From Anaerolineales bacterium UBA877 (lineage in GTDB: Bacteria; Chloroflexota; Anaerolineae; Anaerolineales; Villigracilaceae): 33,743 bases of DNA. Shown one piece after another: positions 29,013 through 33,743 of the stretch (positions are counted from its first letter, which is position 1; each line of letters starts with the position of its first letter). The stretch covers positions 11,604 through 45,346 of the forward strand of contig DBFP01000019.1 of assembly GCA_002294405.1 (NCBI GenBank), in the 5' to 3' direction. The notes under the pieces are model-generated. The model worked only from the letters and a program-made list of their open reading frames with translations, ran no database searches and was not told the origin of the DNA. Position numbers and translations under genes: made by a program.

Positions 29013-30842
29013 TTACTTGGTTTCCGCAACCATACCTGGAATCTCAATATCATAGGCTTGTTCCATCTCATATTTGAATTGCTGCGTGTACAGGCGATAA
29101 TAGTGTCCCCGGAGTTTTAGCAATTCAGAATGCGAACCCATCTCGGTGATGTGTCCGTCTTCTATTACAATAATTCGATCGGCCCTCCTGATGGTGCTCA
29201 AGCGATGCGCAATGATTATCGAGGTTCGCCCGGTCATCAGAGCCTCCATACCTTGCTGGATCAAAGCCTCGGTCAGGGTGTCCACACTGGAAGTTGCCTC
29301 GTCCATTATGAAAATTTCCGGCCTCGATAGTACTGCGCGTGCGAGGCTGATAAGTTGCTTTTGCCCCACTGACAACAAATTTCCGCCCTCGCCAACATTC
29401 TGGTCATAGCCATTCTCAAATACCTTAATAAAGTCGTGGGCGCCGGCAATCTTGGAAGCCTCTTCAACCTCTTCGTCACTGGCACCGAGGCGACCATAAC
29501 GGATGTTTTCGCGTATCGATCCGGAAAATAGGTGCGGCGTCTGGAGCACGATCCCCACATGTGAGTGAATCGATTGCAGAGTGTAGTCGGTGTAGTCATG
29601 ACCGTTGATGCGTATATAACCTTCTTTTGGCTCATAAAATCGGCAGAGCAGATTAACGATAGTGGTCTTCCCTCCGCCTGTTGGTCCAACCAAAGCTATC
29701 GTTTCACCAGGCTTGACCTTTAACGAGAAATCGGACAGGATCGGTTTCTGGTCTTCGTAATAGAAATGCACATGGTCAAACTCAATTTCACCAAGGATTG
29801 TCTCCGCGGTATATGCTTCGGGGCGGTTTTGAACATCAGGAACGGTATCCAATAATTTGAAGATACGCTCTGCAGAGGCAATGGAATGCTGCATTTCGGC
29901 ATACACGCGTGCCAGATCTTGAACAGGCCAAATCATGAAAGTCAAGTATGAGACAAATGCATGGATGTCACCTACGGTAAAGGTGGAATTAACACTTTGC
30001 ATTCCACCATACCAGACAATCGCACCCAGTGCGAACGCAGCCACAATTTGGACGGTCGGCAGGAAGAGCGCTGACAACCAGGCAGCCCGGTACGAAGCCT
30101 TAAACATATCATCGGTTAGTAAGGAAAATTCCTTCAAATTTTCATCTTCGCGACCCAGTGCCTTGACAACCCGTACACCTTGAATATTCTGATTGTATTC
30201 GCCGGTTATTTTGGAGTTCGCACGACGCGACCTGCGAAATTCCACCAGGATCTTTTTACGGAAGGTGACTGCAATCATTAGCAGGATTGGGATGATGGCA
30301 AAGACGATCAGCGCCAATCTCCAGTTGATGATCATCATAAAAACCACTGACATGATCACACTTACGATGGCCCAAGTAACATCGAGCATGCCCCAAGTCA
30401 TCAAGCTGGAAATTCTACCGGAGTCTGAAGTCACACGCGCCATAAGTCGTCCGACTGCATTCTGGCTGTAAAAAGAGAGCGATAAATCCTGCAAATGGTT
30501 GAAGACCGCCCTGCGGATATCGTATTGAATGCGTTCTCCCAGGATGCCGACCAGGAATATAAAGAAAAAAACAGAAATAGCCTGCAAGAGCTGCAATCCA
30601 CCGTAATAGGATGCGTACCTCAAAAGAGTGGGAATGCTTTTCTGGGCAATTCCCTGGTCAATCATGTTCTTGTTAATGAACGTGAACAAGGCGTCCAGGC
30701 TCGCGGTGAAAACGATGGCGATAAGGAATTCAACCATCCAGCGCCTATGCGGCTTTACCAGTCCGATAATCCTTTTAAAGGTGTGAGAGGTCAATTGACT
30801 GGTATATTCTTCTTCTTCAAGTTCGATCAAATCATCAGGCAT
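29013..30842 (-). CDS. Heterodimeric ABC exporter, catalytically complete half (BmrD/TM288-like)
   Basis: A 609-residue half-transporter: about six transmembrane helices in residues 1-330 and a nucleotide-binding domain after that. Walker A is GPTGGGKTT, Walker B IFIMDEATSSVD keeps the catalytic Glu, and the H-loop is IIAHRLSTI. The signature is LSVGQ rather than LSGGQ, so when paired with the next gene one of the two ATP sites is degenerate. This is the pattern of heterodimeric multidrug exporters such as BmrCD and TM287/288. It is the second gene of the pair, 42 bases downstream of its partner, with a GGAGA SD. Substrate is unknown. Confidence 0.93.
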   Translation of the reverse strand: MPDDLIELEEEEYTSQLTSHTFKRIIGLVKPHRRWMVEFLIAIVFTASLDALFTFINKNMIDQGIAQKSIPTLLRYASYYGGLQLLQAISVFFFIFLVGILGERIQYDIRRAVFNHLQDLSLSFYSQNAVGRLMARVTSDSGRISSLMTWGMLDVTWAIVSVIMSVVFMMIINWRLALIVFAIIPILLMIAVTFRKKILVEFRRSRRANSKITGEYNQNIQGVRVVKALGREDENLKEFSLLTDDMFKASYRAAWLSALFLPTVQIVAAFALGAIVWYGGMQSVNSTFTVGDIHAFVSYLTFMIWPVQDLARVYAEMQHSIASAERIFKLLDTVPDVQNRPEAYTAETILGEIEFDHVHFYYEDQKPILSDFSLKVKPGETIALVGPTGGGKTTIVNLLCRFYEPKEGYIRINGHDYTDYTLQSIHSHVGIVLQTPHLFSGSIRENIRYGRLGASDEEVEEASKIAGAHDFIKVFENGYDQNVGEGGNLLSVGQKQLISLARAVLSRPEIFIMDEATSSVDTLTEALIQQGMEALMTGRTSIIIAHRLSTIRRADRIIVIEDGHITEMGSHSELLKLRGHYYRLYTQQFKYEMEQAYDIEIPGMVAETK

Positions 30843-30884: not shown

Positions 30885-32714
30885 TCACGCTAAGGAAATT
30901 TCTTGTTCCAACTCGTCGTCTATACGTGTCTGGATTGCATAAATCCTTTGGTACATCCCATCCTTTTCAACCAAATCTGCATGCCTTCCCATTTGAACGA
31001 TTTCACCTTTGTCCATAACCAGGATCAAATCTGCGTTCATCACTGACTGGATCCGATGAGCAATGATGAACGAAGTGCGGTTTTTCATCAACTCATTTAA
31101 TGCCGATCGAATTTCCGCTTCAGTCTCAGTATCCACGCTGGAAGTGGAATCATCCAGGATCAGGATGCGAGGATTCTTTAGAATGGTACGAGCAATGGCG
31201 ACACGCTGCTTTTGACCACCGGATAGGGTCACTCCCTTTTCTCCCACCAGCGTGTTGTATCCCTCCGGGAATGTCATGATCACATCATGAACCGCAGAAG
31301 TCTTGGCAGCCTTCACAATCTCTTCCTGTAAAACTTCGCGACCCACGCCATAAGTAATATTCTCGCGAATGGAACGACTAAAGAGGAATGGCTCCTGCTC
31401 TACGATTCCTATTTGTTTTCGCAGGTATTCTCGCGGGTAATCCTTTAATTCTTCACCGTCGAGAAGTACGCGTCCATCCGTATATTCATGGAAACGGGGC
31501 AGGAGATTGACCAATGTAGTCTTCCCTGATCCGGTCGAACCGAGCAGGGCTACCGATTGCCCCGGCTGCACGACAAAGGAGATATTCTTAAGAACATCTG
31601 CATTTCCATCACTGTACTGAAATGAGACGTTCTCAAAGATGAATTCTCCACGAACGCTGTTCGTTGGCCTTACAGTACCTTGATCAAGAGGTTCCCGGTC
31701 TTGTTTCACTATGTCCATTAGACGTCCATAAGAGACCATTCCAGTGGAGGTGTTAACGATGATCCGCCCAAGATTGCGCATCGGCCAAATGAGCCAGACA
31801 ACCAGCCCAACATAAGCCGGGTAGGTGCCAATCGTAATCTCGCCGTGAACAACCAAGATGCCGGCGAAAATAAACCCGGCCAGCATTTGAAAACCGCATA
31901 ATAAATCCGAAAGAGGCCAAAACAACGAGTGCATCCTCATGAGTTTTCGCCCTAGCTGGTACTTTTCCCAGTTATCTTTTTCGAACTTTTCCATTTCATA
32001 TTCCTGGCGGGCAAAAGCCTTCACTACGCGAACCCCGGTAAGGTTTTCCTGCAGGGTGGTGGAAAGCTTCGCTTCCTGTTCCTGGTATTTCTCGTAGGCT
32101 TTTGTTACTTTCCTGAAAAACCATATTGAAACGATGATGATTATTGGGACCACGGCGATGGATACCAAAGCCAGTTTCCTGGAAAGAGACCAGATGGCAA
32201 TAAAGTTAATAATGAAGAGAAGCAAGATTCGACCGACGCCGATAGCCTGGTCATTAAAAAATGTACGCACAGAGTCCACATCTGAAGTTACCCGCTCAAT
32301 CAAGTCTCCGGTTGGAGTTTTACTGTGATAGGCAAAGGATAAATGCTGTATATGATCAAATAGGAAATTGCGCAATCGCCTGGTGATATTTTCTGCCGCG
32401 TAAGAAGCCATGCGACTGGATAGGTAGGCGAATCCTCCTTCAAAAATGGCAAGGACAATAAACCCCGCAGCAATAATAATCAGGGTTCTGGAAAGGATTC
32501 CTGCAAAGGGTGGAATATTGCCGACCACCGTATCAGCGAAATTCCTTAATAACAAGTAGGTCAGAGTTTTCGCAGTTGATGAAAAAGCCAGCGTCAGGTT
32601 GGCGACAGCATAGATGAGGCGATAGCCTATCATCATACGCAGCATGCCAACAAGCTTATTTTTGCTTATGGCTTTGCGAAAGTCGAAATATGTTGTAGAG
32701 GAATTTGTTTCCAT
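30885..32714 (-). CDS. Heterodimeric ABC exporter, degenerate-site half (BmrC/TM287-like)
   Basis: A 609-residue half-transporter with an N-terminal membrane domain (about six helices) and C-terminal ATPase domain. Walker A LGSTGSGKTT and signature LSGGQKQRVAIART are canonical, but Walker B reads ILILDDSTSSVD, with Asp in place of the catalytic Glu. Together with the LSVGQ of its partner this makes exactly one degenerate and one intact composite site. It is the first exporter gene after a short leader ORF and terminator. The ATG at 32714 has only a poor SD (GGACC-like). Likely a drug or lipid exporter; substrate not readable from sequence. Confidence 0.93.
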   Translation of the reverse strand: METNSSTTYFDFRKAISKNKLVGMLRMMIGYRLIYAVANLTLAFSSTAKTLTYLLLRNFADTVVGNIPPFAGILSRTLIIIAAGFIVLAIFEGGFAYLSSRMASYAAENITRRLRNFLFDHIQHLSFAYHSKTPTGDLIERVTSDVDSVRTFFNDQAIGVGRILLLFIINFIAIWSLSRKLALVSIAVVPIIIIVSIWFFRKVTKAYEKYQEQEAKLSTTLQENLTGVRVVKAFARQEYEMEKFEKDNWEKYQLGRKLMRMHSLFWPLSDLLCGFQMLAGFIFAGILVVHGEITIGTYPAYVGLVVWLIWPMRNLGRIIVNTSTGMVSYGRLMDIVKQDREPLDQGTVRPTNSVRGEFIFENVSFQYSDGNADVLKNISFVVQPGQSVALLGSTGSGKTTLVNLLPRFHEYTDGRVLLDGEELKDYPREYLRKQIGIVEQEPFLFSRSIRENITYGVGREVLQEEIVKAAKTSAVHDVIMTFPEGYNTLVGEKGVTLSGGQKQRVAIARTILKNPRILILDDSTSSVDTETEAEIRSALNELMKNRTSFIIAHRIQSVMNADLILVMDKGEIVQMGRHADLVEKDGMYQRIYAIQTRIDDELEQEISLA

Positions 32715-32756: not shown

Positions 32757-32785
32757 AAAAAACCACGGTGCAGGAGGCACCGTGG
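32757..32785 (-). terminator. Intrinsic terminator upstream of the ABC exporter genes (possible attenuator)
   Basis: On the - strand, CCACGGTGC and GCACCGTGG form a perfect 9-bp GC-rich stem with loop CTCCT, followed by six T. It lies 24 bases after the short ORF's stop and about 42 bases before the ABC exporter start, so read-through is required to express the exporter from the upstream promoter. Confidence 0.88.
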
Positions 32786-32787
32786 CA

Positions 32788-32808
32788 GAATAACTGCTTT
32801 CGTTATCC
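32788..32808 (-). other. Hairpin between the leader ORF stop and the terminator
   Basis: On the - strand, GGATAAC and GTTATTC can pair (7 bp with one G-U) around a 7-base loop. It may help space the terminator from the ribosome at the leader stop codon. Modest stability; could be incidental. Confidence 0.35.
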
Positions 32809-32809
32809 T

Positions 32810-32905
32810 TTATAAGGTGACAGGCGCACTCCATTCAGGTTTAATTCCGCCTGCAGCTTCAAGGCAGAGGATTTGTGGAAACCCGACAGTGTTATGAAAT
32901 GCCAT
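32810..32905 (-). CDS. 31-residue leader peptide ORF upstream of the ABC exporter
   Basis: A small ORF of 31 codons plus stop, with ATG at 32905 and TAA ending at 32810. The SD AAAGGAGG lies 8 bases upstream, far stronger than that of the exporter gene itself. The peptide starts MAFHNTVGF, has one Cys, and ends PEWSAPVTL; it has no signal peptide or membrane segment. It has its own promoter and is followed by a terminator, so it forms a leader unit for the ABC pair. I do not recognise the peptide. It could be a regulatory leader, as BmrB is for bmrCD, or a free small protein. Confidence 0.6.
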   Translation of the reverse strand: MAFHNTVGFPQILCLEAAGGIKPEWSAPVTL

Positions 32906-32919
32906 AGAGTGCGCCTCCT
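32822..32919 (-). promoter_or_regulatory. Alternative RNA pairings around the leader SD
   Basis: On the - strand, AGGCGCACTC (32916-32907), overlapping the SD, is perfectly complementary over 10 bp to GAGTGCGCCT (32831-32822) near the end of the leader ORF. The same SD region, AGGAGGC (32919-32913), is also complementary over 7 bp to GCCTCCT (32778-32772) in the loop and left arm of the downstream terminator. The two pairings exclude each other, as in an attenuator. Folding energetics were not computed. Confidence 0.55.
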
Positions 32920-32948
32920 TTCCTTAAAATTAGATTAATCCAAAGGAG

Positions 32949-32976
32949 TTTATCATCTCAAAGCAAGAATTGTCAA
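32949..32976 (-). promoter_or_regulatory. Sigma70 promoter for the leader-exporter unit
   Basis: On the - strand a consensus TTGACA (32976-32971) and GATAAA (32954-32949) are separated by 16 bases; an alternative -10, TAAACT, gives 18. Transcription would begin near 32942, giving a 5' leader of about 37 bases before the small ORF. It is the best promoter I found in the window. Confidence 0.7.
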
Positions 32977-33024: not shown

Positions 33025-33743
33025 TTAGTTTGCAACCCTGATTGTGAGATCATTTATCCATTTTCTCGAGAAGTAGCGTGCCAGTCCTGCAAAAAACTTG
33101 ACAGCTTCTTCGCATAATGTAAGCGCATAAACAAGATGGATGGGGAGGTGTAAAAGGAATGCGCCTAGCGCAGTAACCGGAACACCTACCAACCAAATGA
33201 TAAAACCATCCAAAACAAGGGAGAACCTGGTGTCTCCCCCTGAGCGCAAGATCCCGATAATGATCACGTGATTTGCAGCACGCACGGGCATACCTAGAGC
33301 CAGGACAGTGAGGATGTTACGGGCATCCACGATCACATCGGTGGAAACATTAAAATATTTGAATAAATGCCAGGCGGTAAAATATATAAGCACACCCATT
33401 AAAGCAGCCCCGAACATATTGAGACCAAGGGAACGACCGGCATATAGGAAAGCCGTTTTTTTATCACCTTGACCAATAAGGTGTCCGACCATGATGGATG
33501 TGGCGCTTCCGACACCCATGAAGATCACGAATGCCAATTGATCTACGGTCGCAACAATATTGATGGCTGCAATGGCGCTCGTTCCGATATGCGCGTAAAT
33601 TGCCGTGTATGTGGTTATACCCAGGGACCATAATATCTCATTTGCTATTACCGGGAGGACTGGTTTCAACACTGACAGCAAAAAATGGAAATCAAGTTCC
33701 ACCAGATTCCGAAACGAGGCAGCAGAAGGGTTCGTCCGATCCC
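33025..33743 (-). CDS. MATE-family efflux transporter, C-terminal half (5' truncated by window edge)
   Basis: The frame stays open to the last bases of the window, so the start lies beyond it. The visible 239 residues cover about six transmembrane helices, about half of the usual 450-residue protein. Signals include PVIANEILWSLGITTYTAIYAH split across the start of the second half, FMGVGSATSIMVGHLIGQGD and GILRSGGDTRFSLVLDG, which are typical of the second MATE repeat. MATE proteins export drugs or metabolites using Na+ or H+ gradients. It lies just upstream of the leader and ABC exporter on the same strand but ends 49 bases before that promoter; no terminator is evident between them. Confidence 0.88.
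   Translation of the reverse strand, partial: DRTNPSAASFRNLVELDFHFLLSVLKPVLPVIANEILWSLGITTYTAIYAHIGTSAIAAINIVATVDQLAFVIFMGVGSATSIMVGHLIGQGDKKTAFLYAGRSLGLNMFGAALMGVLIYFTAWHLFKYFNVSTDVIVDARNILTVLALGMPVRAANHVIIIGILRSGGDTRFSLVLDGFIIWLVGVPVTALGAFLLHLPIHLVYALTLCEEAVKFFAGLARYFSRKWINDLTIRVAN

Follow-up and report, generated by a model that had tools for sequence, protein, structure and literature searches.

The leader of vmlR, the gene for an ABC-F resistance factor of Bacillus subtilis, contains an anti-antiterminator that encloses a uORF, an antiterminator and a terminator. An antibiotic-stalled ribosome prevents the anti-antiterminator, so the antiterminator forms and the intrinsic terminator is avoided (PMC9226507, in the part of its text available to us). 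bmrB, also from B. subtilis, has 53 amino acids and a terminator inside the coding region (PMC4191407, in its accessible part). The Gram-positive mef(E)/mel and ermK leaders share a macrolide stall peptide, MRLR (PMC4335068, likewise in part). A survey of premature terminators describes attenuators hopping between genes and covers ABC leaders; the word Chloroflex- is absent from its main text as available to us (PMC2965389).

The leader compared with these systems here lies on the minus strand of the window, which is the whole stretch of 33,743 nucleotides that was analysed. We argue that it very probably attenuates transcription by way of the ribosome, in response to impaired translation. As in attenuators of the vmlR and bmrB kind, a short ORF led by a Shine-Dalgarno sequence (SD) stands before a terminator and a target gene, and mutually exclusive structures were found by computation. 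A literature search by title and abstract found no leader-peptide system of such a kind in the Chloroflexi or Anaerolineae.

Like vmlR, the uORF is inside the anti-antiterminator (helix 1:2 encloses nearly the whole ORF) and ABC-F genes are among the targets. Unlike in vmlR, as far as the accessible text describes it, the strand that switches is the ORF end, several gene families in one class share the element, and a second terminator follows in 41 of 118 copies. The preliminary description had likened the layout to bmrB-bmrCD. The mechanism agrees: there is a translated leader, competing stem-loops, an intrinsic terminator and a multidrug ABC exporter pair as the target. The anatomy does not, because the bmrB terminator is within the ORF whereas here it begins 23 nt past the stop (median 22 nt, range 9-94, in the family), and the ORFs here have only 17-35 codons (median 28). 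By layout vmlR appears anatomically closer, on the portions of both papers that we could consult. The mef(E)/mel and ermK leaders also attenuate transcription of resistance genes through a leader peptide, but the N-terminal part of the peptide here has no sequence conservation. The trp-type amino-acid attenuators use a 1:2 / 2:3 / 3:4 logic, and so does this leader, although its switching strand is the end of the ORF. A shared run of regulatory codons, as in the trp type, was not found among the leader peptides inspected by eye.

The window leader and its exporter pair

The preliminary description listed a promoter with a consensus -35, a 31-codon ORF with a strong SD, an inverted repeat of 10 bp from the SD to the ORF end, and an intrinsic terminator followed by two exporter genes. 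All of these are present (Table 1), and the repeat is longer than claimed. Helix 1:2 has 13 bp, one of them G-U (32916-32904 with 32834-32822, -25.0 kcal/mol). The window leader folds at -68.6 kcal/mol, against -48.05 +/- 3.99 for dinucleotide shuffles (z -5.15; reached by none of 200). Promoter-like matches in the window are at chance level, with 4 found and 3.8 expected. The extended -10 recurs upstream of 67 of 103 related leaders, where 5.1 would be expected after mononucleotide shuffling. The hairpin right behind the stop codon could possibly serve for pausing or spacing. Rfam gave no match at the gathering score in the window or in the relatives' loci L001, L006, L010, L022 and L029.

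Table 1. Parts of the leader and its target genes in the window.
Feature	Position	Strand	Remarks
Predicted promoter	32947..32976	-	TTGACA 32976-32971, 18-nt spacer, extended -10 TGATAAACT
-10 hexamer	32952-32947	-	window -10 reads TGA-TAAACT
Segment 1	32904..32916	-	AGGCGCACTCTAT; SD 3' part and start-codon flank; 5' arm of anti-antiterminator helix 1:2
Leader ORF	32810..32905	-	31 codons, SD-led (AAGGAGG), ATG 32905, stop 32810; peptide MAFHNTVGFPQILCLEAAGGIKPEWSAPVTL
Segment 2	32822..32834	-	putative switching strand ATGGAGTGCGCCT; ORF 3' end, inside codons for E-W-S-A-P
Hairpin behind stop codon	32787..32809	-	from the fold
Segment 3	32773..32781	-	GGTGCCTCC; terminator left arm and loop; partners 32832-32829 and 32827-32823, one bulged U
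Intrinsic terminator	32757..32786	-	10-bp stem, 5-nt loop (stem-loop 32786-32762) and T run; -18.1 kcal/mol
Target gene 1, ABC half-exporter	30885..32714	-	609 aa, degenerate Walker B (Asp); Pfam ABC_membrane and ABC_tran
Target gene 2, ABC half-exporter	29013..30842	-	609 aa, complete Walker B, LSVGQ signature; Pfam ABC_membrane and ABC_tran

The first target protein has Walker B ILILDD, where Asp replaces the catalytic Glu, and the signature LSGGQ. The second has IFIMDE and LSVGQ. The order is thus the one described earlier, a degenerate-site half-transporter and then a complete one, and this is the arrangement of heterodimeric ABC exporters. The gene pair is a probable drug exporter. By sequence both proteins match animal ABCB proteins best in the PDB; among the bacterial entries are TM_0288 with its partner and a pair labelled 'multidrug resistance' (5mkk). 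For the first protein, the closest relatives come from metagenome bins of Anaerolineales or Chloroflexi (best identity 84%), and a few relatives are from bins with other taxon names (L015, L025, L064). The window probably derives from an uncultured bacterium akin to the Anaerolineales. The 3' part of a MATE-family efflux gene lies directly upstream of the leader at 33025-33741, on the same strand as the exporter pair.

Frame, codons and pairings among the relatives

We looked for the leader in 67 of 72 loci with exporter relatives, leaving out L066, L067 and L070-L072, which are at most 36% identical. The criterion was an SD-led ORF before the exporter that ends in [RWGCS]-[SG]-[AV]-P plus at most 6 residues. 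A leader of the window kind is found in 34 of the 67, and the aligned upstream regions conserve both the leader ORF and the competing pairings. The motif is absent in the other 33, five of which have less than 200 nt upstream. Further copies were found with a covariance model, R1. Its purpose was solely to locate copies, and so its structure was left with a 3-bp hairpin in CCTTCTCGGAG that is doubtful. Removing duplicates took 130 copies to 121, one of which (L086, E 0.86) is probably a chance match and was kept among the copies without a gene label.

The conserved end of the leader peptide is P-x-R-S-A-P, and most relatives encode it by nearly identical codons, CCT NNT CGG AGT GCG CCT. The codons were counted in 95 model-found copies, after 9 of 104 model loci with a motif score below 27 had been removed before the codon and frame counts. 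The Ala codon is GCG in 89 and GTG in 6, with no synonymous change, and the Ser codon is AGT in 84, ATT in 4, AGC in 3, GGT in 3 and ACT in 1; the model that found them favours the conserved letters, so these counts are biased. Even so, the pattern is one expected from RNA pairing and not from a peptide, and the constraint on segment 2 seems to lie in the RNA.

If the conserved end were instead an arrest peptide, it would stall the ribosome through the nascent chain, and its conservation across non-homologous downstream genes could be read that way. We consider this very unlikely. It is the nucleotides that are conserved, and the Ala changes are non-synonymous and preserve pairing. Some copies have W, T, C, L or Q in place of the R, and two leaders (L163 and L176) keep the segment 2 RNA but read it in frame +1; that of L163 even stops within segment 2. 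A ribosome at the ORF end would also cover segment 2, so termination would be favoured. RSAP as an arrest motif was rejected on the codon evidence.

The frame argues for conservation of a translated leader. A frame-blind search upstream of each of the 121 copies for the best SD plus ATG or GTG gave 103 starts, and 101 of these are open and in frame with segment 2 (the S-A-P frame). The start lies 36-81 nt from segment 2. An SD-led start is missing in 18 copies. In four ABC-F copies (L081, L129, L137 and L173) the search found no SD, and some 6-9 nt separate the leader ATG from the end of a -10-like box, TATAAT or TGATAAACT. The leader mRNAs of these copies may therefore be leaderless.

Two other features were seen around the ORF end. 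A conserved CCT NNT stands directly upstream of segment 2 (window 32839-32837), with CCT as the first codon in 78 of 95 copies. The T of NNT is often retained where the amino acid differs, and no pairing partner was found for these codons. By eye, several relatives seem to have compensatory changes in a hairpin spanning the stop codon (GTTGAC...GTCAAC), which differs from the post-stop hairpin of the window. Over the 121 copies, however, the mean z of this hairpin is no lower than -1.0, and we rejected the hairpin as a conserved element.

The core of segment 2, GGAGTGCGCC, is complementary both to segment 1 and to segment 3. Segment 3 reads GGTGCRCTCC in many relatives. Of 35 leaders, 34 have a called terminator. 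Their mean energies are -16.4 kcal/mol for 1:2, -16.5 for 2:3 and -12.3 for 1:3, and the cognate means were reached by 121, 2 and 107 of 5000 permutations, respectively (L037 entered with its second terminator here and with its first in the set of 118 copies). None of the permutation counts and test p-values, here or below, is a true probability, because the copies share ancestry.

Over 118 copies (three of the 121 are without a called terminator) the mean for 2:3 is -15.1 kcal/mol. Segment 2 with 107 unrelated terminators, each paired with three randomly chosen segments 2, gives -9.2 kcal/mol. A duplex of -12 kcal/mol is reached by 81% of the copies and 25% of the controls, and the cognate mean was reached in none of 10000 permutations and none of 5000 within gene class. 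In alignment A1 (33 of 35 leaders, L037 and L053 left out) 92.9% of 310 cells pair for 2:3, against 20.5-53.5% when slid, and four cells changed on both sides. One leader (L065) has GCG changed to GTG in segment 2 and a matching ACATTCC in the terminator loop. For 1:2, over the 103 copies with an SD-led start, the cognate mean is -18.4 kcal/mol against -17.2 when permuted within gene class (0 of 5000), and control windows give -8.6 in mid-ORF (41 leaders) and -10.2 upstream.

Ribosome position and the proposed switch

We propose three exclusive pairings: segment 1 with 2, segment 2 with 3, or segment 3 with 4, the right arm of the terminator. During normal translation the ribosome would run across segment 2, or 1:2 would form; in both cases 3:4 could form and transcription would stop. 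If, say, a ribosome-targeting antibiotic held the ribosome at the start or on one of the next few codons, segment 1 would be covered and segment 2 left free. 2:3 would then form before the right arm of the terminator exists, and the polymerase would read into the exporter genes. In this scheme we infer the inducer, the stall site, termination and read-through, while the parts, their conservation, the frame, the pairings and the downstream gene set are computed.

The ribosome was represented by masking its footprint in a transcript cut just before the terminator right arm, and leaders with at least 5 bp of 2:3 were counted. Of 101 leaders, 92 form 2:3 with the start masked, 54 with codon 6 masked, 50 with no ribosome and 9 with the stop masked. 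With no ribosome this pre-terminator fold is split, 40 leaders having 1:2 and 50 having 2:3. In the window, the fold without a ribosome has 12 bp of 1:2, and the one with the start masked has 10 bp of 2:3 instead. Since masking codon 6 gives nearly the same count as no mask, stalling would need to be very early. Full-length folds still contain the terminator in 93 of 101 leaders under the start mask, so 2:3 must act kinetically. A ribosome at the stop allows a rival pairing, 1:3, in 37 of 101 leaders; the window is one of them and shows it strongly. Because of these 93 terminators and 37 rival pairings, the mechanism depends on the order in which the segments are transcribed and on the SD being occupied anew, both of which we infer.

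The 1:3 pairing has to be weighed as an antiterminator in its own right. In that case the SD segment would pair with the terminator, the ORF end would be its competitor, and read-through would come once the ribosome had left segment 1 and sat on segment 2. The stop-mask folds, that of the window included, are what such a switch would give, and in the window 1:3 is even slightly stronger than 2:3 (-17.6 and -16.4 kcal/mol). The family argues otherwise. Over 101 leaders the mean is -10.6 kcal/mol for 1:3 and -15.3 for 2:3, and 2:3 is stronger in 87. Three leaders (L007, L010 and L011) have a changed segment 1 yet keep segments 2 and 3; in the folds of L010 and L011 the partner of the altered segment 1 is CATGATTCTACCTCC, which immediately precedes segment 2. 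Control through 1:3 also predicts the highest expression under unhindered translation, unlike the drug-induced systems compared above, as their available texts describe them. We find it unlikely. The preliminary description had the SD region pairing with either the ORF end or the terminator. Both pairings exist in the window, but the second is not conserved in the family, and the conserved putative antiterminator is ORF end with terminator (2:3), not SD with terminator (1:3). The ribosome-mediated attenuation proposed there is well supported by the in-frame leader ORFs, the conserved competing pairings and the conserved terminator, with the change that the switching strand is the ORF end.

Distribution, downstream genes and tandem terminators

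At E<=1e-3, R1 has matches in 82 of the 396 class genomes, which carry up to 4 copies each. In control genomes at the same threshold it matches 2 of 185 (the class of L071, whose record is titled Proteobacteria) and 0 of 198 (the class of L066, titled Bacilli). The two control matches (L177 and L178) are ordinary terminators without a leader, so the weakest matches in the class may include some false ones. In a phylum-wide search all 28 matching genomes belong to the class sample; the numbering implies 345 newly drawn genomes without a match, their class not being given.

The genes behind the 121 distinct copies are window-type exporters (60), GNATs (19), other ABC exporters (9), other ABC ATPases (9), ABC-F proteins (6), HAD proteins (4), RIO kinases (2) and RsgA (1), and 11 have no label. 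The weakest 31 of the 122 listed R1 matches (E 5.5e-5 and above) are outside this analysis. Labels come from family searches for representatives, and for the others from BLAST to the window exporters, clustering or reading; one HAD label (L110) is by clustering alone, with no Pfam match, one ABC-F label (L137) is by likeness, and the name DrrA is based on one match below the cut-off (L175). Four of five scanned ABC-F proteins (L129, L131, L152 and L173) pass the NCBIfam cut-off for ribosomal protection-like ABC-F; the fifth (L081), cut by the locus end, is below it. The element also stands before genes that are not usually counted as resistance genes, namely RIO kinase (L139, L157), RsgA (L174) and HAD (L143, L146, L170).

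The element is therefore not specific to exporters and precedes several unrelated gene families. This bears on another reading of the window, in which the upstream MATE gene merely has a strong terminator, the ORF is there by chance and the exporter promoter lies downstream of the terminator. The element is indeed downstream of the MATE gene and on the same strand. However, many genomes have the extended -10, the SD, the frame and the pairings in front of unrelated genes, and we regard this reading as scarcely credible. The set of downstream genes fits translation stress and hints at a common alarm that is raised when protein synthesis is blocked.

The 41 copies with a second terminator (T2) behind the first (T1) include L138, L163, L171 and L159; only one terminator was found in the window leader. 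They are unevenly spread: 15 of 19 GNAT copies, 4 of 4 HAD, 2 of 2 RIO, 5 of 9 ABC ATPase, 9 of 60 window-type exporter, 1 of 6 ABC-F, 5 of 11 unlabelled, and none of 9 other exporters or of 1 RsgA. The right arm of T1 pairs with the left arm of T2 at -17.2 kcal/mol. Permutation gives -12.3 (0 of 10000 reach the cognate value), or -13.9 when it is confined to the gene class (0 of 5000). This duplex is stronger than the reciprocal one, T1 left with T2 right, in 29 of 41 (-17.2 and -14.7 kcal/mol, Wilcoxon p 3.5e-4). Segment 2 in these copies pairs with T1 at -14.6 and with T2 at -9.3 kcal/mol (Wilcoxon p 6.5e-7).

One can picture a relay. Segment 2 would capture the left arm of T1, the freed right arm of T1 would pair with the left arm of T2, and T2 would be disarmed. 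A single ribosome event would then open two gates in series. It is also possible that T2 is a duplicate of T1 that serves only as a fail-safe. Duplication alone would make T2 similar, the left arm of T1 is also constrained by segment 2 and this could produce the asymmetry, and the tandem copies are related to one another. A fold test with exchanged T2 arms gave 40 of 41 for cognate and 330 of 410 for exchanged arms, a weak control as the stems resemble each other; we preferred the energy permutations for this reason. A count of differences in the T2 left arm covers paired positions only and is no evidence by itself. We put the chance at about even that there is a class-wide translation-stress attenuator regulon in the Anaerolineae with many copies acting as such a domino relay.

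If real, the tandem-terminator relay would be a way to gain tightness of attenuation. A relay of this sort combined with leader-peptide attenuation was not found described in the literature search, which most subscription papers were beyond the reach of, and the phrase tandem terminators is absent from the papers, as far as their text was available, among the matches listed for a looser search.

Our best reading of the leader is that it would work as in vmlR and bmrB and yet represent a new family that has a regulon of its own. To our knowledge, work on the leader-ORF attenuators of resistance genes has mainly gone gene by gene, in Firmicutes and other cultured bacteria. In the present case a single RNA element that can be identified by sequence stands before at least 8 kinds of gene in a largely uncultured class, and thus outlines a translation-stress regulon. 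The RIO kinase, RsgA and HAD genes under the element are candidates for translation-stress functions. By association these and the GNATs may be unrecognised resistance or ribosome-repair genes.
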